From Thermodesulfovibrionales bacterium (GTDB taxonomy: Bacteria; Nitrospirota; Thermodesulfovibrionia; Thermodesulfovibrionales; UBA9159): a stretch of 51,402 nt of DNA. Each line of letters opens with the position of its first letter. Position 1 is the stretch's first letter. The notes under the pieces were generated by a model. That model was given only the letters and a program-made list of their open reading frames with translations. It ran no database searches and had not been told where the DNA came from. The stretch covers positions 1-51,402 of the forward strand of contig DASRZP010000054.1 of the NCBI GenBank assembly GCA_035686305.1. Reading direction: 5' to 3'. This document shows positions 27,504 through 40,823 of the stretch, one piece after another. Both the position numbers and the translations under genes were made by a program.

Positions 27504-27532
27504 TTGACAAAGAGGAAAAAGAGGACTAGAAT
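27504..27532 (+). promoter_or_regulatory. near-consensus sigma-70 promoter of the CHAT-cyclase-DUF928 genes
   Basis: TTGACA (27504-27509), a 17-base spacer and TAGAAT (27527-27532). The expected start lies only about 14 bases before the ATG at 27553, and the leader would consist almost wholly of the AAGGGGGAGGT ribosome site. Confidence 0.65.
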
Positions 27533-27552
27533 ATCGCCAAGGGGGAGGTTAC

Positions 27553-29940
27553 ATGCGCCTTCATGATGCATTTGCCAATCGCATCTTATTATTGCTTTAT
27601 CACCATCCATTCAGTGCTTACAGACGATTTCTCGTAGCTGTTCTGTTACTTTTTGCTGCTTGGTCTCTCCTCCTGTTCTGTCCTCGGTTGTTGTTAGCCG
27701 AGCCTCTTTCAGGGTCACATGATTCTTCGTCGGAAAGATTGATGATGCAGGGCATGAGGTCTTTCGAACGAGGCGCATTTGAAGAGGCTGTTCACTTTTG
27801 GAAAGAAGCTGAAGAATTATACGAAAAGAGAGAGGAGATCGGCAGACAGAGCGAAGCGCTTGTCTTTCTGTCCCAGGCATATCAGTCCCTTGGCCTGACC
27901 CGTGAGGCGCTCAGGTGCCTCGAATCTGCTGAAATCCTTGCACAGAAGTCCGGTGATGCCGTGAGGATAGCCTCTGCCCTCGCCAGCCTCGGTAACGTGT
28001 ATATCGCCACAGGGCCAGAGGACAAGGCCAATGAATATTTGAATAGAAGCCTTGCTATGGCGAAGGAATTGCAGGATTTCAGACTGTCGGCTACAATCCT
28101 GAATAACCTGGGAAACCTTTTTATGACTCAGAAAAAGTATCGTGAAGCCGGCGACGCCTATCAAGAAAGCATAACCTATGCGACGAAGTTCGATAAACGT
28201 TCATTGACTGCCATAGCTGCCACCAATGCCGCAATGGCATTGGTTCAAGAAAGACGGTATTCGGAAGCAAAAACACTTCTCGATGGGACAGCAGACATTA
28301 TCGGGGGGCTCGATGATTCTCATGAGAAGGTATACGCATTGATCAATGCCGGTCTTACCTATGCTGATCTTCGGTCACATCTTCCCGGTGAGAAGGACGT
28401 CCTCTTGCAACGCTCTTCTCAGATGTTTCACTTAGCGGTGAGTTCGGCAGAGGCGATTGGTGATCTCCGTGGGGAGTCGTATGCTTTGGGTTATCTTGGA
28501 AAACTTTACGAGGACGAACGCCAATATGAGGAAGCCCTTGGGCTGACCCATCGGGCAGTATTTACGGCCCAGTTGGTGAACGTACCTGAATCGCTTTATC
28601 TTTGGCAGTGGCAAGCCGGACGTCTGCTCAAGGCGATGGGGAAGATTGATGATGCAATTCCAGCGTATAGAAATGCGCTGCAGACTCTTCAGGCTATTCG
28701 CCAGGAGATGTCACAATGCTATGGAAGGACAAAACTATCATTCCGTGAGTCTGTGGGACCGCTCTATTTTGAGTTCGTTGATCTCCTCCTTCAGCGGGCG
28801 GCCGCGATGCAGGGAAAAGAGGAATATGAGCCTTATCTCCTTGAAGCCAGAGAGACGGTGGAGTCGCTCAAGATTGCAGAATTGCGGGATTATTTTCAAG
28901 ATGATTGCTTCGATGTCGCAAGAACAAGAATTACAAGGCTTGACCTCGTCTCAAAGACGGCGGTCGTGGTCTATCCAATAGTCCTTCAAGACCGGACCGA
29001 GTTGTTGGTGAGCCTTCCGAGCGGCCTGAAGAGGATTTCTGTGGGTGTTGGAGAACGTGCCCTTGCCCAGGAAGTCAGGCAGTTTCGCTCGACACTTGAG
29101 AAGCGTACTACCAGGGAATATCTCCCCCATGCCCAAAGACTTTACGACTTGCTTATCCGGCCTCTCGAGCCAGACCTGCGACAGGTCACTACCGATACCC
29201 TTGTGTTTGTGCCTGATGGTCCACTCCGGACGATTCCGATGGCAGCACTTCATGACGGCAAGGAATTCCTGGTGGAGAAGTATGCGATAGCGGTCACACC
29301 CGGTCTCAATCTCACTGATCCCCGCGCCCTTAATCGTGAGCAGATTAAGATGCTGGCAGCGGGTCTTACGGATGCTGTGCAGGGATTCCCGCCCTTGCCG
29401 GATGTATCTTCGGAACTGCAGGCCCTTCGAGGCATCTACCCGGGTGACATCCTCCTCAATCAGAATTTTCTTATCGCTTCCATGGAGAAGGAACTGAAGG
29501 ATAAGCAGTTCTCGATCGTGCATATCGCCTCCCATGGGCAATTTGAAAGCGAGATCAGTAAGACTTTTCTGCTCACCTTCGACGACAAACTGACTATGGA
29601 CCAACTTGACCGATTTATTGGGTTTTTCCGTTTTCGTAATGAACCGTTGGAATTGTTGACGTTGAGCGCCTGTGAAACGGCCGTAGGCGATGACCGCGCG
29701 GCCCTTGGCCTCGCCGGTGTTGCAGTCAAAGCCGGTGCAAGAAGCGCCCTTGCGACACTCTGGCACATCAATGACCGGGCCGCCTCACTTCTCGTTGATG
29801 AGTTTTATCGACAACTCCAGGATCCATCGGTCTCGAGAACCTCAGCTCTCCGAAATGCGCAGAGAAAACTCCTCGGTCATGCATGGTATCAGCATCCCGG
29901 CTATTGGTCTCCGTTCCTTCTCATCAATAACTGGTTATAG
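27553..29940 (+). CDS. exported TPR protein with C-terminal CHAT (caspase-like) protease domain
   Basis: 795 residues. A long N-terminal leader with a hydrophobic stretch (about 25-49, ending L-L-L-A-E) should send it to the periplasm or anchor it there. Tetratricopeptide repeats run from about 65 to 390 (for example LASLGNVYIATGPEDKANEY, LNNLGNLFMTQKKYREAG). The CHAT domain (about 480-795) keeps both catalytic residues: His661 in HIASHGQF and Cys707 in LSACETAVGDDRA. CHAT proteins are clan CD cysteine peptidases related to caspases and separase. This is the first gene of a three-gene unit with a cyclase and DUF928, facing a TpsA/TpsB pair. It may process the secreted protein, which is inference. 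Confidence 0.92.
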   Translation: MRLHDAFANRILLLLYHHPFSAYRRFLVAVLLLFAAWSLLLFCPRLLLAEPLSGSHDSSSERLMMQGMRSFERGAFEEAVHFWKEAEELYEKREEIGRQSEALVFLSQAYQSLGLTREALRCLESAEILAQKSGDAVRIASALASLGNVYIATGPEDKANEYLNRSLAMAKELQDFRLSATILNNLGNLFMTQKKYREAGDAYQESITYATKFDKRSLTAIAATNAAMALVQERRYSEAKTLLDGTADIIGGLDDSHEKVYALINAGLTYADLRSHLPGEKDVLLQRSSQMFHLAVSSAEAIGDLRGESYALGYLGKLYEDERQYEEALGLTHRAVFTAQLVNVPESLYLWQWQAGRLLKAMGKIDDAIPAYRNALQTLQAIRQEMSQCYGRTKLSFRESVGPLYFEFVDLLLQRAAAMQGKEEYEPYLLEARETVESLKIAELRDYFQDDCFDVARTRITRLDLVSKTAVVVYPIVLQDRTELLVSLPSGLKRISVGVGERALAQEVRQFRSTLEKRTTREYLPHAQRLYDLLIRPLEPDLRQVTTDTLVFVPDGPLRTIPMAALHDGKEFLVEKYAIAVTPGLNLTDPRALNREQIKMLAAGLTDAVQGFPPLPDVSSELQALRGIYPGDILLNQNFLIASMEKELKDKQFSIVHIASHGQFESEISKTFLLTFDDKLTMDQLDRFIGFFRFRNEPLELLTLSACETAVGDDRAALGLAGVAVKAGARSALATLWHINDRAASLLVDEFYRQLQDPSVSRTSALRNAQRKLLGHAWYQHPGYWSPFLLINNWL

Positions 29941-29955
29941 TCGTGGCCATAGGAA

Positions 29956-31917
29956 ATGAACGCACTGCGTAACGTGACCAAATCTCCACTCCTTGTGAGT
30001 CTGATAATCGGGGTAATCATTTCTCTCGGTATTATCGCTTTACGGAATAGCGGTGCCCTGGAATCTATTGAACTCATAGCGTACGACTGGACCCTGAGGT
30101 CGCTGCCGCAGATATCTTCTCAAGAATCCCCTGTTGTCCTCATCAAGGTCACTGAGGATGACATATCTGATCTCGGGCAATGGCCGCTCACCGACGCATC
30201 TGTTGCTCGGGCTCTGGAGATGCTTCTCCGGTGCCGGCCGCGCGTGATAGGGCTGGACATCTACCGGGACATGCCCATTCCACCGGGGACTTCCGAACTG
30301 GAGAGGATCCTGCTCGGGAATGAGAATATCATAACGGTAATGAAATTCGGCGATAAAGAAGAGCATGGGATATTACCCATCGCCGCGCTCAGGGAGACGG
30401 AACGGGTCGGCTTCAATGACATCCTTGTGGACCCCGGAGGCATAGTCCGCCGGGGGCTCCTTTTCCTGGACGATGGTGAGAATACCTTTTACTCCTTCGC
30501 GCTGCGCGTTGCCCTTCTCTATCTCAAGGAAGAAGGGATTCGTCCACAGCCTGACGCATCGAACCCACAGTTTCTCCGGCTCGGGAAAACAACGATTCCA
30601 CCTTTCGGACATGATGAAGGCGCCTATGTGGAATCTGACGCGCGAGGTTATCAGTTTTTGCTCGATTTCCGGGGTGCTCGGTTACCTTTCCGTTCGTTTG
30701 CACTGGCTTCCCTCATCTCAGATAGAGTTCCTGCAGAGGCTCTCAAGGACAAGGTCGTTCTTATCGGAACCGCAACGGAGAGCGTTAAGGATTTCTTCTA
30801 CACACCATACAGCAGGGGACTTCACTTCAGTCAGCAGATCACAGGGATAGAGTTACATGGTTATATCATAAGCCAATTGCTCAGGTTTGCACTGAAGGGG
30901 AGTCGGCCTATCTCGGCGCAGGGGAATTGGTGCGAAGGACTTTGGATCGTCATATGGGGCATCATGGGTGGAGTAATTGGCTCAAGGGTCCGCTCTCCCT
31001 GGAGCTTCTCGATTCTTGCATCGGCGGGCATATTAATTCTCGTGCTTTCAGGGTATCTGGCATTAATGAACAGCTGGTGGATCCCTTTGATACCTCCGGT
31101 CATGGCATGGTTATTCTCCTCCACAGTCGTGACCGCTTATATGTCGAACAAGGAAAAGAGGGAGCGGATTTTCTTGATGCAACTTTTTTCGAAACATGTG
31201 TCACGGGAGGTTGCTGAGACCATCTGGAATGAACGGGAACAATTTCTCGACGGCGGACGGCTCCGTTCTCAAAAGCTGATCGTAACAGTGATATTTACCG
31301 ATCTGAAAGGGTTTACTGCCGTCTCTGAAAAGCTTGACCCTCAGACGCTCATCAATTGGCTCAATACCTATCTGGAGGCTATGGCCCGGTTGGTCATCGA
31401 ACATGGAGGTGTCGTCGATGATTACATCGGAGACGGTCTCAAGGCCGATTTCGGCGTGCCCTTGCCCCGCACTTCTGAGGCTGAAATAGCCAAGGACGCC
31501 CTGAGCGCGGTAAATTGTGCCCTTGCTATGGAAAGAGAGATGAGTCGACTGAATTCTGTCTGGCACCGGGAGAACCTTCCGACGGCGTGCATGCGCATAG
31601 GGATATTTACCGGTCCCGTGGTTGCGGGAAGTTTAGGCAGTTCGGAACGACTGAAATTCACGACCATTGGCGACACGATTAATGTAGCATCTCGGCTTGA
31701 GAATTTCGATAAGGACCATTGCGATTCTGATCCCATAGAGAACCCTTGCCGGATTCTCATCGGAGATTCAACATTACACTATCTCGACAACCGATTCAGA
31801 ACCGAAAAGGTCGGTGACGTGAGTCTTCGGGGCAAGGAACAGAGGATAGCGGTCTTCCGCTTGTTCGGTCGGCCAAACGGGTACCCAGACAGTAACGGTC
31901 AGGAGGGAAGACTATGA
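29956..31917 (+). CDS. CHASE2-domain class III adenylate/guanylate cyclase
   Basis: 653 residues. One helix (about 11-30), an extracytoplasmic CHASE2 sensor (about 35-310), three helices (about 325-400) and a class III cyclase domain (about 440-640). Metal-binding Asp449 is in VIFTDLKGFT and Asp493 is in YIGDGLKADFG. The catalytic Asn/Arg lie in TTIGDTINVASRLE. The position usually held by Lys (V-D-K-Y-I-G-D) is Asp489 here, so base choice or activity may differ from standard adenylate cyclases. It starts 15 bases after the CHAT gene and overlaps DUF928 by four bases. No cyclic-nucleotide receptor is visible nearby. Confidence 0.93.
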   Translation: MNALRNVTKSPLLVSLIIGVIISLGIIALRNSGALESIELIAYDWTLRSLPQISSQESPVVLIKVTEDDISDLGQWPLTDASVARALEMLLRCRPRVIGLDIYRDMPIPPGTSELERILLGNENIITVMKFGDKEEHGILPIAALRETERVGFNDILVDPGGIVRRGLLFLDDGENTFYSFALRVALLYLKEEGIRPQPDASNPQFLRLGKTTIPPFGHDEGAYVESDARGYQFLLDFRGARLPFRSFALASLISDRVPAEALKDKVVLIGTATESVKDFFYTPYSRGLHFSQQITGIELHGYIISQLLRFALKGSRPISAQGNWCEGLWIVIWGIMGGVIGSRVRSPWSFSILASAGILILVLSGYLALMNSWWIPLIPPVMAWLFSSTVVTAYMSNKEKRERIFLMQLFSKHVSREVAETIWNEREQFLDGGRLRSQKLIVTVIFTDLKGFTAVSEKLDPQTLINWLNTYLEAMARLVIEHGGVVDDYIGDGLKADFGVPLPRTSEAEIAKDALSAVNCALAMEREMSRLNSVWHRENLPTACMRIGIFTGPVVAGSLGSSERLKFTTIGDTINVASRLENFDKDHCDSDPIENPCRILIGDSTLHYLDNRFRTEKVGDVSLRGKEQRIAVFRLFGRPNGYPDSNGQEGRL

Positions 31918-32738
31918 GAAAAGGATGTTTCGTGATCTGGACATTGATTGCGGTATTCGTCGTGCTCTTTCCCTTGACGGTATTTGCGACGAACGGTCAG
32001 GAAGAAAAAGATGACGCAGGCACTGCGTCAACGAAGAGAAAAACGGACGACAAGCATGAAAAGACATTCAGGGGAGATTCGGCTCTGCAAGACAAGAAAC
32101 AGCTCGTCTCCGCAAACATGCCGGTATATAAGCCTCCTCTGCGAGGCGCACCGAAAGGGCGTGTCGGAGGAGGAACGCGCGGTATCGGTGATCAATTGGT
32201 CACTCTGTCGGTTTTGGTCCCAGACCATGTAGCACTGACGTCTCAGGAACAGCCGACCCTTTATTGGTATTTGTCAACACTTACTGCCTATCCCGTTGAG
32301 CTGACCGTTATCGAGGAGGAGGCGATATATCCGCTCGCAGAAAAACGCCTGAGCCCTCCCGTCGGGCCTGGCATCCAGCAGATTCGACTGAAGGATTACG
32401 ACGTATATATTGATCCGGGGAAACAATACCGCTGGTTCGTGGCGGTGATCCCTGACGCTGACCGCCGTTCCAAAGACGTTCTCTCCGGAGGCATGATCGA
32501 GCGTGTTGAGCTTTCTGATGCAGTTCGTGTGAAATTGAGACAGGCAAAGAAGGAAGCGGTCCCTTTCATTTATGCCGAGGAAGGGATTTGGTACGATGCG
32601 CTGACAGCGCTTTCAGAACTGATTGACGACAGACCCGATGACCCTGACCTCAGGAATCAGAGGGCTTCCTTACTGGAGCAGGCGGGATTGACGGAAGTCA
32701 CCGAAGATTTGATGAAACAGAGGGTCCAGCCCAAATAA
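31914..32738 (+). CDS. exported DUF928 protein
   Basis: 274 residues. The signal peptide (about 1-26, ending T-V-F-A) is followed by a charged linker. Then comes the DUF928 signature YKPPLRGAPKGRVGGGTRG, with the family's SVLVPDHVALTSQEQPTLYWY and a later block AEEGIWYDALTALSELIDD. DUF928 proteins are best known from cyanobacteria, where they lie near CHAT, CHASE2 and haemagglutinin-like genes. Their function is unknown. ATGA overlap with the cyclase gene indicates coupled translation. It converges on tpsB with a 36-base gap. Confidence 0.88.
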   Translation: MRKGCFVIWTLIAVFVVLFPLTVFATNGQEEKDDAGTASTKRKTDDKHEKTFRGDSALQDKKQLVSANMPVYKPPLRGAPKGRVGGGTRGIGDQLVTLSVLVPDHVALTSQEQPTLYWYLSTLTAYPVELTVIEEEAIYPLAEKRLSPPVGPGIQQIRLKDYDVYIDPGKQYRWFVAVIPDADRRSKDVLSGGMIERVELSDAVRVKLRQAKKEAVPFIYAEEGIWYDALTALSELIDDRPDDPDLRNQRASLLEQAGLTEVTEDLMKQRVQPK

Positions 32739-32774
32739 TGCCTTGAAGGGGAGACGACGGACTAATCCTGTTGG

Positions 32775-34517
32775 CTAAAACACGGCAATGACAAACCGGA
32801 AATGGATCCCGTCATCCTGGATATTGTGATCGGGGTTATGGATCTTCTTCAGGGCGAGGCCCCAATAGAATTCAAATTGGGGCTTCCACGTGAAGGGATA
32901 TTTGACGGTCGATTCCCATCGAAGCCCTAAGCCGACACTGCCGATGGTGCTTGGACTGGGCGTCGGAAAGTCGGTGTTCCACACCCTGCCAAAATCGGCA
33001 AATTGGGCAAACTCAAGGGAGTTTGCCCAGGGTCTGTTTCGAATTATGGGTATGCGGGTTTCCAGGGAGGCGATGAGAGCGTTGTCCGTGACGAGTTGAT
33101 TCTCTCTGTACCCTCTGACGCTGTACCTGCCTCCCACAGCGATCTCTTCAACGGGCAACAGTGACTTGTTGGCCAGTTGCCAGTCAATGCTGACTATCGA
33201 TTGCATATCGAGTATCGGAAGACGTCGTGCCCATTGAAACTGGCCAAGCCATGAAAAAAACTGGGTGTCAGGCAGGTTTGAGGGGCTAGTCGTTGCCCCG
33301 AAGGCATCGATCCCGAGGCTGAACCGGGAACGAAGTGCAATGACTTGAGCCGGTGTGCGGTATATCCACTCCTGGGAAAACCTGAGAGCCGTGACCGTCG
33401 ATTTTCCGTTTTGTGCCCCAAGGTTGAAGGAGAACGGCTCGCCATCTAAGTATGTCTTGTTGCGAATGTATTCACCGGTCAGAGCTAAGGCGATCTCATG
33501 ATTGACCGTTCGGTACACCGGCTGCCTGAGAGTAATTCCGTAAATGTCGGATTTGCTCACGATGTCGAGAGATTTAAAGGGCTCCTGCACTTCGCTAAAA
33601 TTGTTCTTCTTGTAATGCAAGGTCAGGGTCGAATCGTATTCTGTGAAGGGCAGTGTATAACTCGCCTCGATCTGTGGTTCGATCCCGCTTGATCCGCCGT
33701 ACATGAAGCTCAGGATGTCGCCATGGCCGGTCAAATTCTGATGGACAACAGTCGTAAGCCACTGTTCTGCTCCGACGGTGGGGGACTGGTAGTTGTTGTA
33801 TTCGGGAAAGACCTTGAAGGGAGTTTCTTCCTGAATCTCGACCTTGAGCACAGCCTCACCACGCTGAACACCCGGCTTGAGCTCTGCCTTCACATTCTTA
33901 ATGCGGTCATCCTGCTGTAAGATCTGGAGTCCCTCCTGGATATCTGAAATATTGAGAGGCGCTCCGATCCCCAAGAGGAGACGGTTCCTCAGGTAATCGG
34001 AACGAAACCATCTGTTCCCTTCAATCACGACATCCGTCAATTTCCCTTCAACGATCTGCAGAGTGATTATCCCGGCAGTCACGGTTTGATCAGGAATTAC
34101 CGCACCCGAATTGATATAGCCACTGTTGATATATAAGACTGTAAGGGCAAGTCTCAGCGATTCCAGGTCGGTATCGGTCAGTTCCCGATTCAGGTAGGGT
34201 GAGGTGACTTCAGCCAGTCTTTCCTGAGAAAAAACCGTGCTTCCGACTACCCTGATTTCCCGCACAAAGACCCGGGGCAGCATCGACAGCGGCTCTTTTT
34301 CTTGCCCTGGAGTGGAAAGGGGGACCTGAATCTCGGGTGGAAGGGGAGGAAGTTCTTTTGGCAACGGTAAAGGTTTTTCACTCGATCGACCAGTGCGGTC
34401 GACTCCGGGGATCCCCTCTGCGAAACTGGAAGTGGTCGCTACACAAGCGATGAGATAGATAAGACAGTGAAACAAGACAGAATGGTATCGATAGCCCTTA
34501 GCGTGAGAAATCGTCAT
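32775..34517 (-). CDS. TpsB outer-membrane transporter (ShlB/FhaC/HecB family)
   Basis: 580 residues. The signal peptide (about 1-34) is followed by a Pro-rich linker (PLPKELPPLPPEIQVPL). Two POTRA domains (about 85-240; VFVREIRVVGSTVFSQERL, then LQIVEGKLTDVVIEGNRWF) and a 16-strand beta-barrel (about 250-580) come next. The loop motif VRGYRENQLV is the V-R-G-Y tetrad of the family that reaches into the pore. The C-terminus ends in Phe (FVIAVF), as expected for an outer-membrane protein. It lies 52 bases after the TpsA gene and should export it. Confidence 0.95.
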   Translation of the reverse strand: MTISHAKGYRYHSVLFHCLIYLIACVATTSSFAEGIPGVDRTGRSSEKPLPLPKELPPLPPEIQVPLSTPGQEKEPLSMLPRVFVREIRVVGSTVFSQERLAEVTSPYLNRELTDTDLESLRLALTVLYINSGYINSGAVIPDQTVTAGIITLQIVEGKLTDVVIEGNRWFRSDYLRNRLLLGIGAPLNISDIQEGLQILQQDDRIKNVKAELKPGVQRGEAVLKVEIQEETPFKVFPEYNNYQSPTVGAEQWLTTVVHQNLTGHGDILSFMYGGSSGIEPQIEASYTLPFTEYDSTLTLHYKKNNFSEVQEPFKSLDIVSKSDIYGITLRQPVYRTVNHEIALALTGEYIRNKTYLDGEPFSFNLGAQNGKSTVTALRFSQEWIYRTPAQVIALRSRFSLGIDAFGATTSPSNLPDTQFFSWLGQFQWARRLPILDMQSIVSIDWQLANKSLLPVEEIAVGGRYSVRGYRENQLVTDNALIASLETRIPIIRNRPWANSLEFAQFADFGRVWNTDFPTPSPSTIGSVGLGLRWESTVKYPFTWKPQFEFYWGLALKKIHNPDHNIQDDGIHFRFVIAVF

Positions 34518-34569
34518 AGACTCGTCCGGCCGTCCATTACTTCCGGTCTCACAAACCTCCTCCTTCTTG

Positions 34570-37350
34570 TCAGGGAACCGGCTGCACCCCCGTGGGAAGC
34601 TGGTAGAGAGTGCTCGGTAAGACGCTTCCCGGCGATATGGGCATACCGTCGCGGCCGCTCACGATAAGACTGCTCCTTCTCTCTCCGCGGATACGCTCCG
34701 CACACCGGTCACGAAGGAGCGCCTCGTCCCTCAAAAAGCCACTCTGTATAGGTACCAGCGTTCCGCTGATACTCGCAATGGCTGCTTTAATGTCGACTGT
34801 GCCGTTAATCCCCAGGGCCGAGGAAGCATCCACGAGGCTTTCAGGAGAAGCAAGGAACACATCTGCATTGATCCGGATGTTCCCTCCCTTTCCTTCAAAG
34901 GCATTGGCGATGATGCGGCTGTCGTTGAGCACGACGTGGTGTGAGTCGACTACCACATTACCACCGATGGTCTGAGGCCCTCCGCCCACACTCGATGAGA
35001 TTGTACTGTTCACCAGCTCGATCATAGTACCTGCCTCGACCTTAATGTTGCCTCCGTCTGACTTTGCCGCTTCTGTCGTTACGACGCTCTCGATCACCCT
35101 CACCGAGTCGGAAGCCCTGAACGTTATGTCTCCGGCATTGGCTGTGCCAGTGCTTTCTGATGAAATCGTAGATTTTCCGGAAATGGTCACCAGTCCTCCC
35201 TGTAACGTTATATTGCCACCATTGCCGGAAGCCGCTGCTGTCGAAAGAATGCCCGAATTGGCCGAGACATTGACGGTACTGGCACTAACGTCTATATTCC
35301 CACCCTTTCCCGATCCGATCGATGAAGCGCTTATGAGTCCATGGTCCTCAAGGAGAAGACTGCCGGTTTTCAGTCGGATATCTCCACCGGCTCCTGCGTT
35401 GGTAAGAGCGGACAATCCGGTAAAATCCTTTTGGAGGGGGTCAGAGGTCTCTTTCAGACCCGTGATCTTTATGGTTGACGCCGTTATTTCGATGTTCCCG
35501 GCATTCCCTGTGCCGAGGAATCCCGCAGCAGAGATGAAGCCCCTGTTACTGATATCGATGCTGTCTGATGAGATGCGGACATCACCAGCGTTTCCCGGCG
35601 CATTATTCTGGAGGAAACTGCCGATGAATCCGCTGTCCTTTACCTCCAGATTGTGGGAAGTAATCGATACGTCTCCCCCCTTTCCTGATGCCTGCGTGCC
35701 GTCCAGTACGGTGTTAATGTTTGCCCGGTTTCCGTCCGGACTCATCCCTCCAACGACGATCGTATCAGCAGTCACATTGACCGGTAAGCCCTGGCCCGGG
35801 CCCCCCAGAACTGCAGCAGATATCTCCGCGCCATCCAAGACCTGAACTGTCTTTGCCGAGACGCTGAGCGATCCCGCGTTTCCTGCTCCCTGTGTCTGCG
35901 TCGTGAGCCCGGTAAAGCCAACCTGGGCATTCTTGCCCGAGAGAAGAACATCGTCCGCGACTACGGTTAGTTTTCCAGCGTTTCCCTTGAGTTCGTTCCC
36001 CTGGACCTGAAGCGCTGAGGCATCGATGTATCCGCTGTTGAGCACCTCTACGGTATGTGCATGCACCGTGACATCTCCACCATTTCCGGTGCTGACCGTC
36101 CGCGAGCCTATAAAGAAGCCGCTTTGAACAAGGAATTTATCCGTTGCCGTAATCTCTACGTTCGCGGCGTTGCCTGATGCAAAGGCCCGCGAACCAATGT
36201 CGCCGTAAAAATCGTTGCTCGCATAGGGACTCATGGAAGGGTCCTCATCACCGAGGAGCACATTCTTGGCAGTTATTCTGACGCTGCCCGCACGACCACC
36301 GGCAAAGCTTGAAGAGGCTATCTCTGATCCCCTCGTAAAAAGCACGTCGCCTGTCATGGATATGTCAACAGATCTGCCGGGGTGATCAACCGGACCACGA
36401 GTGGCTGCATTTATAAAAGAATCGTCAACCTGGAGCTGCTCCCCGATGATGCTCAGAACTCCTCCCGGGTTTCCCCTCAGGGCGACAGAACTGTCCTTGA
36501 TGAGTATGCTGCCCCCCCTTATCAGGATGGTCCCTGCCTGATCAGTGTCAATGTTGTTCCCCTGAACGTTAAGCCCTTGTATGTTGATCATCGTTATGTT
36601 CCCGAGTTTTGAAAAAGATTCGGTATTCAGATCATTGAGGCTCACTTCTCCGGGAGACGCTACACTCACAAGGTTTATCCTTCCGCTCGGGACCCAGAGA
36701 TAGCCTGGCTTGGGGTCACCCAAATAGGTAAAATCACCTCCTACAAATGACAAGGTCTTACCCGTCGGGATTTGAAGGCCGCTTTGCTGTATTTCGATCG
36801 ACGCCGGCTTTGTGCTGAGAAACCCAAAGGCAGAAGGCGGCGCAGTCGTCAGGACGCTGTTATTTGAGAGGTTTGCATAATAAATCCCCCCGTCCGAAAG
36901 TCGCAAGAGGTCGGCTGTACTAACATGAAATGATCCGCCAACATCGAGGCTCGCCTTGGGACCGAACAAAATGCCGTTCGGGTTTAGCAAAAAGAGGTTT
37001 GCGTCAGGAATGGTTGACCTGATAAGTCCATCAATAGAAGAAAGGCTCCCTCCGGTGACCCGGCTGATGACATTCTTGACTGTCTGGGGACCGCTGAAGG
37101 TCGCACTCTCCCCCGTAAGCACATTGAACTGGCTGAAGCTGTGAAACAGATTATTCCCGTGGATCTGTCCAAGGTCAGAGCCAATGAGATAGTTTGGCCC
37201 GGCAAGAGGGCCCTTCGTTCCTAAGCTTCCGTCGAGGATGATCTCGGCAAAGATCGACGAGCAAAGAGCAGCCACCGACAAGGAGGCAAGAAAGCCCCTG
37301 AGAAACACTACGAACAGAGGACGCTTCGAAAAAATGATTTTCTTATGCAT
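34570..37350 (-). CDS. TpsA filamentous-haemagglutinin-type secreted protein
   Basis: 926 residues. The signal peptide (about 1-35) is followed by a two-partner secretion domain (about 36-290) with NLFHSFSQFNV and NLFLLNPNGILFG, which is the N-P-N-G-I signature. A beta-helix of repeated GNAGDI-type units follows to about 870 (GNAGSVRI, GNAANVEI, GNAGNIEI, GKGGNIDV). The tail CAERIRGERRSSLIVSGRDG resembles the ends of cyanobacterial family members. The protein is likely surface-bound or released through the neighbouring TpsB. A run of G lies before the ATG as ribosome site. Confidence 0.94.
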   Translation of the reverse strand: MHKKIIFSKRPLFVVFLRGFLASLSVAALCSSIFAEIILDGSLGTKGPLAGPNYLIGSDLGQIHGNNLFHSFSQFNVLTGESATFSGPQTVKNVISRVTGGSLSSIDGLIRSTIPDANLFLLNPNGILFGPKASLDVGGSFHVSTADLLRLSDGGIYYANLSNNSVLTTAPPSAFGFLSTKPASIEIQQSGLQIPTGKTLSFVGGDFTYLGDPKPGYLWVPSGRINLVSVASPGEVSLNDLNTESFSKLGNITMINIQGLNVQGNNIDTDQAGTILIRGGSILIKDSSVALRGNPGGVLSIIGEQLQVDDSFINAATRGPVDHPGRSVDISMTGDVLFTRGSEIASSSFAGGRAGSVRITAKNVLLGDEDPSMSPYASNDFYGDIGSRAFASGNAANVEITATDKFLVQSGFFIGSRTVSTGNGGDVTVHAHTVEVLNSGYIDASALQVQGNELKGNAGKLTVVADDVLLSGKNAQVGFTGLTTQTQGAGNAGSLSVSAKTVQVLDGAEISAAVLGGPGQGLPVNVTADTIVVGGMSPDGNRANINTVLDGTQASGKGGDVSITSHNLEVKDSGFIGSFLQNNAPGNAGDVRISSDSIDISNRGFISAAGFLGTGNAGNIEITASTIKITGLKETSDPLQKDFTGLSALTNAGAGGDIRLKTGSLLLEDHGLISASSIGSGKGGNIDVSASTVNVSANSGILSTAAASGNGGNITLQGGLVTISGKSTISSESTGTANAGDITFRASDSVRVIESVVTTEAAKSDGGNIKVEAGTMIELVNSTISSSVGGGPQTIGGNVVVDSHHVVLNDSRIIANAFEGKGGNIRINADVFLASPESLVDASSALGINGTVDIKAAIASISGTLVPIQSGFLRDEALLRDRCAERIRGERRSSLIVSGRDGMPISPGSVLPSTLYQLPTGVQPVP

Positions 37351-37486: not shown

Positions 37487-37516
37487 ATTGTTATCACATT
37501 ACCGTTCATTTGTCAA
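37487..37516 (-). promoter_or_regulatory. candidate promoter of the tpsA-tpsB genes
   Basis: On the minus strand TTGACA (37511-37516) is followed after 18 bases by AACAAT (37487-37492). The -35 is perfect and the -10 is poor. The leader would be about 130 bases. Confidence 0.35.
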
Positions 37517-37823: not shown

Positions 37824-40823
37824 ATGGAACAAAGAGGCCCTCGTCTGTTCTTCATAATATTCACTGCATCAGGCTTTGCCGGCCTCATCTATGAATCCAT
37901 TTGGACCCACTATTTAAAGTTGTTTTTGGGCCATGCCGCCTATGCTCAAGCTCTTGTCCTCGCTGTCTTCATGGGAGGTATGGCAATAGGTTCTCTGCTC
38001 TGTTCAAAATATTCTGCTCGTCTGGACAATTTGTTGGTTGGCTATGCCGTTGTTGAGGTGGTTATAGGCATCTGCGCGGTTTTCTTCCATCCCCTCTATG
38101 TCCACTTTATCGATTGCGCGTATACAACGCTTATTCCGGAGATGGGCTCCCCTCTCCTGGTAGCAATTTTCAAATGGACCGCGGCAAGCATATTGATTTT
38201 ACCCCAGTGCATCATGCTCGGCATGACGTTCCCGCTTATGACCGCCGGTCTTATACGGAGAATGCCGCAGCTTCCCGGTTCCATCGTTGCAATGCTTTAT
38301 TTTACCAATAGCATTGGCGCAGCAGTCGGCGTTTTGGCAACAGGGTTTCTCTTCATAGCATGGGTTGGTCTGCCTGGAACGCTGGTCATAGCAGGATGTA
38401 TCAACATCGTTGTGGCAGCTATCGTTTGGCTTGAGGATAGGAAGAGCCGAACCTATCGAACCGAAGCCCGTCCTGCCACAGGCATCTCTCCATCAAGCGC
38501 CATGTCCGTGGTAATGTATACTATTTTTCTTCTGATCGCTTTGTCGACGGGGCTCTCCTCGTTTCTTTATGAAATCGGATGGATCAGAATGCTCAGCCTC
38601 GTGTTGGGCTCTTCTACCCATGCCTTCGAGCTCATGCTGAGCGCATTCATCGCGGGCATTGCCTTCGGCGGTTTATGGATTAAACGACGGATAGATTTAC
38701 TCGATGACCCGCGAAGCTTTCTGGCGCTTGTGCAAATTGCGATGGGCATACTGGCGCTTGCAACCCTTCCTGTCTATGGCAGCACCTTCACCGTGATGGC
38801 ATGGTTGATGAGAAACCTGCCGAAGTCAGATGTGGGGTATATGCTATTCAATATCTCGAGCCACGCCATTGCGCTGGTCGTCATGCTGCCGGCTGCTTTC
38901 TGTGCAGGCATGACCCTTCCCCTTATTACCACGACACTCCTTCGCAACGGCGCAGGTGAACGAAGTATCGGCTCAGTTTATGGATTTAACACGATCGGAT
39001 CCATTCTGGGCGTCTTTATTGCCATCCACCTGGCGATGCCTCTCCTTGGCCTCAAAGGCATGATTATCCTTGGAGCAGGTGTGGATATTGCACTTGGAGT
39101 TGGGCTGGCATGGTGGGTGTCTCCCTCGTGGCGTACCCCCGGAGCATATACGACCGTGGGTGTCGTTGCCCTACTGCTCCCTATGTTCCTTGTGAAGCTC
39201 GATCCCAGAAAAATGGCTTCAGGCGTGTATCAATTTGGGTTGTTGCCCGAACAGACAAAAGAGGAGACCCTCTTCCACCGTGATGGGAAAACAGCCACGG
39301 TATCAGTCACAAAGGACAACAAATACATGGCGATCAAAACCAACGGGAAAACTGATGCGGGCATCCAGGTAATCGGCAGCGGCCATTCGAGGGATGAAGA
39401 AACCATGGCAATGCTGGGTGCTGTCGGTATTATTCTTAGACCTGAAGCTAGAACAGCGGCCATTATCGGATGGGGCTCAGGACTAACAACCCACACTCTT
39501 TTGGCGGCTCCGTACATCGAAAGCGTCGATACCATTGAGATCGAACCTGAGATGATTAAGGGAGCGACTCTCTTCGGCTCGCGTGTGCGTTTTGCTTATG
39601 AGGACCCCCGCAGCCACGTGAAGATCGAAGATGCAAAGTCCTATTTCTCTTTCTATAACAAGAAATATGACCTTATTATCTCTGAGCCTTCCAATCCCTG
39701 GGTCAGCGGTATAGCAAGCCTTTTTACAAAAGAATTTTACTCTCGCGTACGGGCATACTTAAATGAAAACGGTCTGTTCATTCAGTGGCTTCACCTCTAC
39801 GATATTGACATGCCCCTTGTTGCTTCTATAATGAAGGCTCTTTCGCCTTATTTTTCCGATTATGTAATCTATGCGACAAATTCTACCGATGTCCTTATTG
39901 CTGCATGTCCCTCCGGGAATATCCAAGGGCCGATGACTTCGTTCTTAGCCATGAAAGACCTCATGAATGAACTCAATAAACTCGATATAATGGGACTCCC
40001 GGATATTAACGTTCGTGTGATAGGGAATAAGGCGACGCTCTCGCCGTTTTTTGAGAGTTACAATATACCGCCCAATTCCGATTACGCGCCTATCGTCGAC
40101 CTTTACGCAGTAAAGAGTCGATTTTTTGGCTCAAGAGCCTATGATCCGTTTCACAGTATTCAGTTTGATCGACTTCCGATTTTAGAAATGATCGGGAAGC
40201 AACATGTAAATCTCATTACAGCTAATGTGACGTATTCAACCTATCCAAAAGCACTCAGGATTCATTTTGCAGACATGCTTTATCAGTACCTATTGAAGGA
40301 TCAGTTGCAATGGAACCATCCTGAAGCGCCGCTGCATGAGGAGAGCCGGATGGCAATTATACATGCCAAACAGGTCCTCTTAGGAGAGTGTTCGGAAGAT
40401 GTCTTGAAATTAGAATGGTGGCAGGCAATGCTTCATATCATTGCCGATTTCGTCCCCTGCTGGTCACCTGGACAGCTTGCTGAGCTTTTGCATAGCATCG
40501 AAACTTCAGCATGCGCAAAGCACTTTTCTGTTTCTCAACGTGACTTCATTGACCTGATTAAAGCAGTGGGGGAAAAAGACTCCGCACGTATGGCTGGATA
40601 TTCAAAAAAACTGTTGGAACAGAGGGAGAATAATCTGACAGACGCCGATCTTTTAGAATATATACTATCTGCAGGCATCTTGGGAGATTTAGCGGCAGGC
40701 AATATACAGGGAGCCGATCTTCTGTGGCAAAAATACGGCTCTCTCTTGCCCGTTAAAAATGCACAATCTATATCCGTGAGACTCTTAGTGACCCGCCTCT
40801 CTTCCCATAAATCACTTCCCTGA
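37824..40823 (+). CDS. membrane-fused spermidine-synthase-like protein
   Basis: 999 residues in three parts. A polytopic membrane domain (about 10-460, roughly 12-14 helices) has two similar halves: FTASGFAGLIYESIWTHYL, then STGLSSFLYEIGWIRML. A Rossmann domain follows (about 470-740) with AIIGWGSGLTTHTLL, VDTIEIEPEM and YDLIISEPSNPWVSG, as in aminopropyltransferases. Last comes a helical extension of about 250 residues of unknown type. Proteins of this fused kind are widespread but their substrate is not known; the loop GWGSG differs from the G-G-G-D of true spermidine synthases. The 3' end overlaps the DUF488 gene on the other strand by 56 bases. Confidence 0.88.
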   Translation: MEQRGPRLFFIIFTASGFAGLIYESIWTHYLKLFLGHAAYAQALVLAVFMGGMAIGSLLCSKYSARLDNLLVGYAVVEVVIGICAVFFHPLYVHFIDCAYTTLIPEMGSPLLVAIFKWTAASILILPQCIMLGMTFPLMTAGLIRRMPQLPGSIVAMLYFTNSIGAAVGVLATGFLFIAWVGLPGTLVIAGCINIVVAAIVWLEDRKSRTYRTEARPATGISPSSAMSVVMYTIFLLIALSTGLSSFLYEIGWIRMLSLVLGSSTHAFELMLSAFIAGIAFGGLWIKRRIDLLDDPRSFLALVQIAMGILALATLPVYGSTFTVMAWLMRNLPKSDVGYMLFNISSHAIALVVMLPAAFCAGMTLPLITTTLLRNGAGERSIGSVYGFNTIGSILGVFIAIHLAMPLLGLKGMIILGAGVDIALGVGLAWWVSPSWRTPGAYTTVGVVALLLPMFLVKLDPRKMASGVYQFGLLPEQTKEETLFHRDGKTATVSVTKDNKYMAIKTNGKTDAGIQVIGSGHSRDEETMAMLGAVGIILRPEARTAAIIGWGSGLTTHTLLAAPYIESVDTIEIEPEMIKGATLFGSRVRFAYEDPRSHVKIEDAKSYFSFYNKKYDLIISEPSNPWVSGIASLFTKEFYSRVRAYLNENGLFIQWLHLYDIDMPLVASIMKALSPYFSDYVIYATNSTDVLIAACPSGNIQGPMTSFLAMKDLMNELNKLDIMGLPDINVRVIGNKATLSPFFESYNIPPNSDYAPIVDLYAVKSRFFGSRAYDPFHSIQFDRLPILEMIGKQHVNLITANVTYSTYPKALRIHFADMLYQYLLKDQLQWNHPEAPLHEESRMAIIHAKQVLLGECSEDVLKLEWWQAMLHIIADFVPCWSPGQLAELLHSIETSACAKHFSVSQRDFIDLIKAVGEKDSARMAGYSKKLLEQRENNLTDADLLEYILSAGILGDLAAGNIQGADLLWQKYGSLLPVKNAQSISVRLLVTRLSSHKSLP

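Follow-up and report, generated by a model that had tools for sequence, protein, structure and literature searches.

Organization of the locus

Contig DASRZP010000054.1 of a Thermodesulfovibrionales bacterium (Nitrospirota; assembly GCA_035686305.1), whose 51,402 nucleotides are termed the window throughout, carries five full-length genes organized as two transcription units: genes for an exported, caspase-like tetratricopeptide repeat (TPR)-CHAT protease, a CHASE2-sensor nucleotide cyclase and an exported DUF928 protein on the + strand, and, converging on these from the - strand, a tpsA-tpsB pair of a two-partner secretion (TPS, type Vb) system. An earlier note, made from the sequence alone, had assigned these five identities, and all of the domains score far above the Pfam cut-offs. 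The first three genes had also been described as packed behind a near-consensus promoter; indeed, a sigma-70-like site, TTGACA-17-TAGAAT (27504..27532, + strand; 11 of 12 matches), lies 20 bp 5' of the CHAT start codon (ATG), the CHAT and cyclase genes are separated by 15 bp, and the cyclase and DUF928 genes overlap through an ATGA. This is the best match to the promoter pattern in the block; such matches are generally common (11 found vs 6.9 expected from shuffling). A promoter-like site for tpsA, TTGACA-18-AACAAT (10 of 12 matches), is located at 37487..37516 on the - strand, and the 36 bp reported between the convergent ends of the DUF928 and tpsB genes is exact to the base. Because the 3.23-Mb genome contains so few copies of the genes in question (one CHAT gene, one DUF928 gene, two CHASE2 genes and two TPS-domain matches), their adjacency is not ascribed to chance.

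The protease gene (27553..29940, + strand) encodes 795 residues, with a signal peptide at approximately residues 1-50, TPR repeats within approximately residues 60-390, also detected by Pfam, and a CHAT domain at residues 526-791 (PF12770, E=3.6e-56). The catalytic pair is intact, comprising His661 (codon 29533..29535, + strand) and Cys707 (codon 29671..29673, + strand), and both residues are present in 83/83 CHAT domains of related clusters whose sequences cover these positions. A sequence search of the PDB with the window protein returned TPR proteins only. Signal peptides are found at the N-termini of nearly all cluster CHAT proteins, and those of the Desulfobacterota bear a lipoprotein lipobox (e.g. 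loci L111, L101, L118 and L155), as judged by eye and from hydropathy. Because of these N-termini, CHAT most likely resides outside of the cytoplasm.

The tpsB gene (32775..34517, - strand; 580 residues) adjoins tpsA and encodes the POTRA and ShlB barrel regions expected of a type Vb outer membrane transporter (POTRA_2, PF08479; ShlB, PF03865, E=3.2e-31). TpsA (34570..37350, - strand; 926 residues) is in turn identified as a type Vb exoprotein by a TPS secretion domain at residues 37-280 (PF05860, E=2.5e-37; TIGR01901, E=1.7e-21), and fits the pattern of such proteins in its signal peptide, N-terminal NPxG-like motif and beta-helix. In its AlphaFold2 model, a beta-helix that matches the structures of EtpA, HxuA and HMW1 extends to approximately residue 867 and is followed by a 59-residue tail (residues 868-926; 34573..34749, - strand) that is predicted to be disordered (predicted local distance difference test, pLDDT, below 50). 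This tail contains a conserved motif at residues 883-907 (CAERIRGERRSSLIVSGRDGMPISP; 34630..34704, - strand), which lies outside every Pfam and NCBIfam match of the protein and begins with C883, the sole Cys of mature TpsA.

The cyclase gene (29956..31917, + strand; 653 residues) encodes a CHASE2 sensor domain (30022..30972, + strand; PF05226, E=3e-56) and a class III catalytic domain (31282..31848, + strand; Guanylate_cyc, PF00211, E=1.9e-21) in which the metal-binding Asp pair and the Asn/Arg residues are kept. These class III residues are likewise retained among relatives (each metal Asp in 51/51, the transition-state Asn in 51/51, the Arg in 48/51). At the position of the adenine-specifying Lys before GD, the window enzyme has Asp (VVDDYIGD) and thus lacks this hallmark of adenylate cyclases, and the 51 relatives have Lys in 20, Asp in 17 and Glu in 10. 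As judged from these residues, the product may be cAMP or cGMP, and the substrate may vary by lineage.

The DUF928 gene (31914..32738, + strand) encodes an exported protein of 274 residues with a signal peptide, and the family assignment is secure (PF06051, E=1.9e-37, 129.2 bits vs a cut-off of 26). A fold model of good confidence predicts that an Ig/FN3-like sandwich precedes a set of TPR-like helices. The solved structure that it matches best, at a moderate level (E 1e-5, TM score 0.59 normalized by target), is the C-terminal domain of MtxA, described as Ig-like plus TPR; in magnetotactic bacteria the gene for MtxA is followed by one for a CHASE2-adenylate cyclase (PMC4439547). This parallel, which came up unsought, supports a DUF928-CHASE2 partnership. 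In sequence searches, DUF928 found no credible match in the PDB and no match to MtxA. The MtxA loci differ from the DUF928 loci in that no CHAT or TPS is mentioned for the former (PMC4439547).

Conservation of the gene set

The earlier note had placed these protein types together in cyanobacteria and would have been refuted if their homologues were rarely adjacent elsewhere. To survey neighbourhoods we chose DUF928 as the anchor, this family being rare and specific, and looked for it in 346 Nitrospirota genomes, in a one-genome-per-species scan and in cyanobacterial plasmids; in the neighbourhoods fetched, the genes lie side by side. When diverse cyanobacterial DUF928 proteins were included in an alignment, it contained no segment of sufficient conservation for scanning. 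DUF928 is present in 79 of the 346 Nitrospirota genomes. CHAT accompanies it in 79/79, compared with 57/267 genomes without DUF928 (Fisher p ~4e-41, relatedness ignored), and TPS in 74/79, compared with 43/267 (Fisher p ~4e-38, again ignoring relatedness). At the level of loci, 33/42 Nitrospirota DUF928 neighbourhoods contain CHAT and 31/42 contain both CHAT and TPS. All four protein types occur together in 32 loci from at least eight phyla, so that the proposed association is upheld well beyond the window. The range of the clusters extends from the Nitrospirota to the Cyanobacteriota, Desulfobacterota, alpha-, beta- and gammaproteobacteria, Verrucomicrobiota, Acidobacteriota, Planctomycetota (Scalindua) and Methylomirabilota.

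The composition of these loci follows a few recurrent patterns. The commonest full form has CHAT, cyclase and DUF928 genes in that order, with the TPS genes before or after them on the same or the other strand; the commonest form in Nitrospira is TpsA-TpsB-CHAT-DUF928 with no cyclase (10 loci). In Cyanobacteria, DUF928 is most often accompanied by a neighbouring CHASE2 protein (33/45 loci), whose partner part may be a cyclase, a histidine-kinase-type ATPase, TIR domains or CHAT itself, the last as a CHAT-CHASE2 fusion in Nostoc. Because many clusters do without the cyclase, the view of a self-contained five-gene system was too strong; what stands is a core of TpsA, TpsB and CHAT, usually joined by DUF928. 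The same content in many gene orders argues that the set is conserved for function and not through frozen inheritance.

Protein trees, which the note had suggested comparing, are consistent in outline. Those of CHAT and the cyclase agree on groups of Verrucomicrobiota, Desulfobacterota and Nitrospira, with weakly supported deep branches, and the between-phylum distances of all components correlate, most strongly for the cyclase-DUF928 pair (r=0.91; other pairs 0.57-0.73). Instead of grouping with others from their own order, the window proteins fall among those of Methylomirabilota, Acidobacteriota, Scalindua and Desulfobacterota, so transfer of the genes from phylum to phylum is probable, perhaps all together.

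A C-terminal TpsA motif and TpsA-CHAT fusions link CHAT to secretion

The tail motif of the window TpsA is shared by TpsAs in clusters of many phyla, in the form C-A-x(n)-SSF-x3-GR[D/G/E]-x-[LIM]-P-x2-P, and is mostly single-copy outside of the Nitrospirota. It is situated either at the very C-terminus (the short-tail class) or approximately 80 residues before the end, and most long-tail TpsAs have one further Cys within their last few residues. In 29/44 motif-bearing TpsAs, no other Cys precedes that of the motif. Some genomes encode many such proteins, up to 21 in one cyanobacterium and 11 in Desulfonema.

Among the 346 Nitrospirota genomes, a profile of the motif matched 77, one of these matches being a 31-residue frame that was set aside; the other 76 genomes all have both TPS and CHAT. 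The motif is thus found in 76/90 genomes with TPS and CHAT and in 0/27 with TPS and no CHAT. Within a single genus, the motif occurs in 29/32 of the TPS genomes that also encode DUF928, compared with 0/6 of those without DUF928, and the complete TpsAs of cluster-free genomes, when read directly, have ends unrelated to it. Seven genomes contain the motif and CHAT without DUF928, and for this reason CHAT is the constant partner of the motif and DUF928 was ruled out in this role. In one of these genomes (locus L174) the motif-bearing TpsA and CHAT are encoded in one cluster; they are also clustered at locus L175, from a genome with a partial DUF928 elsewhere.

In other systems the protease and exoprotein are joined. 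A single reading frame spans the TPS secretion domain and CHAT in two Cyanobacteria, L092 from cyanobacterium FACHB-471 (L092:1924-6606, + strand; 1560 residues, TPS 101-296, CHAT 1212-1558) and L091 from a Leptolyngbyaceae metagenome-assembled genome (L091:101-4234, + strand), and in each case genes for DUF928 and a CHASE2-cyclase follow. L090 appears to hold the same fusion gene, split by a frameshift. A third intact fusion, from the Nitrospirota (L169:7334-11410, + strand; 1358 residues), has a signal peptide, a TPS domain and a CHAT domain with both His and Cys, and its gene lies directly behind its own tpsB. The fusion genes also encode repeats. A cytoplasmic CHAT would have refuted the reading of the note; the signal peptides, the lipoboxes and these CHAT domains behind a TPS domain show instead that CHAT is exported. 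Since such fusions occur in both Cyanobacteria and Nitrospirota, CHAT acts within the TPS pathway in no fewer than two phyla. The fusions retain the CHAT His/Cys pair and are devoid of the tail motif; together with the association of the motif with CHAT genomes, this pattern indicates that the tail accompanies a separate, unfused CHAT protein.

A proposed mechanism and its alternatives

We favour, with moderate confidence, the interpretation that the locus encodes a type Vb adhesin with a dedicated exported CHAT protease that acts on the TpsA tail, with DUF928 and the CHASE2 cyclase reporting on the outcome. At the level of sequence, the gene set, its export, the intact catalytic residues, the tail motif and the motif-CHAT association are established; that the tail serves as a periplasmic anchor and is the natural target of CHAT is proposed by analogy. 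TpsA would be threaded through TpsB and form a beta-helix on the cell surface. Its motif-bearing tail, predicted to be disordered, would by analogy remain in the periplasm, where in many relatives the motif Cys and the terminal Cys probably close it through a disulfide, in the manner of the plug that HMW1 and HxuA keep there. Exported CHAT may recognize this tail through its TPR array, perhaps with DUF928, and either cut it or exchange it for a cell-surface link, such that the fibre would be released or fixed. The motif and the predicted disorder are compatible with such periplasmic cleavage. Periplasmic DUF928 might then relay the condition of TpsA and CHAT to the cyclase through its CHASE2 domain, and the cyclase would make a cyclic nucleotide, the signal probably running from outside to inside. 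The signalling half is the weakest link of this mechanism.

Several observations weigh against the proposal. Most Nitrospira clusters have no cyclase beside them, which makes signalling a dispensable part. Since cluster TpsAs served to train the profile of the motif, and since the genomes share ancestry, the Fisher values overstate the significance. In 14 genomes with TPS and CHAT the motif was not found; some of these possess another kind of CHAT, and in others the motif is a variant or the contigs are broken. Finally, the motif lacks GR at five loci that nonetheless have CHAT (L036, L043, L049, L050 and L053), and no acidic CHAT column follows the presence or absence of GR. The note had suggested looking for a conserved CHAT cleavage site in TpsA homologs, and the C-terminal motif is now a candidate for it; Arg-specific cutting after GR, however, was rejected as unsupported, given the five GR-less loci together with the lack of an acidic column tracking the Arg.

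Some of the same features could be accommodated by other schemes. CHAT might act in the manner of a sortase, cutting TpsA at a C-terminal sorting signal formed by the Cys and GRxxLP and joining the fibre to a surface component, much as PorU treats the C-terminal signal of type IX cargo. A short signal borne by so many TpsAs in one genome (the 21 of the cyanobacterium and 11 of Desulfonema) does resemble a sorting signal, and its terminal position in TpsAs with short tails points the same way. PorU of the type IX system, a clan CD cysteine protease whose surface-protein substrates share a conserved C-terminal signal, counts in the same direction by virtue of its common clan with CHAT, despite its different secretion system and protease family. 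We nonetheless regard a sortase-like activity as unlikely, as the clusters, whose neighbours are annotated only in part, showed no conserved gene for an acceptor or for surface modification. The layout of the TpsA-CHAT fusions is also that of polymorphic toxins with a C-terminal peptidase, and toxins of this kind are known to include caspase-like peptidases (PMC3482391), which raises the idea that CHAT is a contact-dependent toxic effector with DUF928 as its periplasmic inhibitor. We give this little credence: most clusters have a separate exported CHAT and a TpsA that ends in a short tail with no toxin domain, and DUF928 occurs beside CHASE2 cyclases without CHAT, unlike an immunity protein. 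An identity of the window pair as a polymorphic toxin or contact-dependent inhibition (CDI) system of the CdiA/CdiB type was rejected in its own right, as TpsA ends in the 59-residue tail and Pfam finds only its TPS domain.

It is also conceivable that the locus comprises two modules, TpsA/TpsB/CHAT and DUF928/CHASE2-cyclase, that share only an envelope or biofilm regulon. The two transcription units of the window would fit this arrangement, as would cyanobacterial DUF928-CHASE2 pairs without CHAT or TPS nearby and, conversely, TPS-CHAT without either partner (L175). Such a division is rendered distinctly improbable by the commonest Nitrospira form, in which CHAT and DUF928 occur without the cyclase, so that DUF928 belongs to both halves, and by the Nostoc CHAT-CHASE2 fusion. 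Relatedness inflates the counts and the distances of all components correlate, as might be expected if the clustering were functionless and reflected block inheritance or a hot spot for envelope genes; we find this hardly credible in view of the many orders and orientations in at least eight phyla, the fusions in two phyla and the CHAT-tracking tail motif. A defence island was likewise considered and rejected, since the PADLOC matches are confined to generic TPR and cyclase models and a weak one to BovA. The cyclase domain does resemble PycC models of Pycsar systems, as any class III cyclase may, and the neighbours tested match no effector model.

Extending the favoured reading, in which CHAT acts on the TpsA tail, we tentatively suggest, as a generalization that could go either way, that these loci represent an extracytoplasmic, protease-coupled class of TPS systems in which a C-terminal sorting or release signal on TpsA is read by CHAT and reported by DUF928 and the CHASE2 cyclase, or in cyanobacteria by another CHASE2 output protein. 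One CHAT could serve many TpsA substrates, and the arrangement would then constitute a processing system built around a CHAT enzyme with a genome-wide substrate tag.

Relationship to known systems

The gene set is real, widespread and undescribed in the literature searched, in which no link between CHAT and two-partner secretion was found. Its closest functional parallel is the CdrA/CdrB-LapG/LapD system of Pseudomonas aeruginosa, in which LapG cleaves the TpsA protein CdrA within the tail that it keeps in the periplasm (PMC5422565, PMC6156197). The proposed likeness lies in a TPS adhesin, a periplasmic protease that acts on its C-terminal tail, a nucleotide second messenger and release of the fibre. 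In place of LapG and LapD, the systems described here have a CHAT protease and a CHASE2 cyclase that makes a cyclic nucleotide and is not a c-di-GMP receptor, and they further differ from the CdrA system in an extra exported DUF928 protein, clustered genes and a signal that probably runs outside-in. Pfam detected no LapG or LapD domains in the five window proteins, and the analogy is therefore one of function only.

HMW1 and HxuA hold a disulfide-closed C-terminal plug in the periplasm, locked in TpsB (PMC5422565); the tails described here are similarly expected to be periplasmic, and many of these TpsAs have a Cys pair in the tail, but their conserved motif is longer and linked to a protease, and the window TpsA has one Cys only. 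The periplasmic C-terminus of Bordetella FhaB is removed in a regulated manner by DegP, CtpA and SphB1 (PMC8263021), which belong to other protease families and act on a large prodomain as opposed to a short tail. With respect to the protease, the nearest counterpart is Csx29 of Craspase, a TPR-CHAT protein with a His/Cys pair that recognizes the C-terminal part of a single dedicated substrate, Csx30 (PMC10028731, PMC9729208). A TPR array and CHAT are common to both; Csx29, however, is RNA-guided and intracellular, whereas the CHAT proteins described here are exported and tied to secretion.

DUF928, named in a single paper of the literature searched, and the exported CHAT proteins gain a likely role and a set of partners, and a C-terminal tag marks TpsA substrates from Nitrospira to cyanobacteria, so that sequence suffices to list them. 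Should cleavage of the tail indeed occur, CHAT would represent a second solution, through an unrelated protease, to the LapG/CdrA problem of keeping or shedding a surface fibre.

Additional features of the surveyed loci

DUF928 genes also occur in other settings. Forms of DUF928 lengthened by an additional N-terminal region are encoded at L046:9785-10921, L051:10101-11264 and L056:9689-10855. A CHASE2 neighbour was sought beside these long, MtxA-like Nitrospirota proteins and the idea rejected, as the adjacent gene at L046 and at L051 encodes a TonB-dependent receptor, and CHAT and TPS are absent from the vicinity. In a genus belonging to the same order as the window (L033:9453-10214, L032 and L040), DUF928 lies beside an NlpC/P60-like protein and a 725-residue protein devoid of Pfam domains, and these stretches have no CHAT or TPS. 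Tandem runs of three or four DUF928 genes are present at L044:8959-11563 and L098:6835-11382, and on a Kovacikia plasmid a gene for a TIR-CHASE2 fusion (L078:8546-11695) is divergent from a DUF928 gene.

The taxonomic labels of a few contigs appear doubtful. L103, a contig of a Bacteroidales metagenome-assembled genome, groups inside the Desulfobacula relatives in both trees, and the labels of L120 and L121 are also questionable, the 'Akkermansia muciniphila' metagenome-assembled genome behind L120 being 5.9 Mb in size. In the window itself, the + strand neighbour of tpsA (37824-40823) encodes a 999-residue protein in which an MFS-like membrane part is fused to a spermidine-synthase domain.

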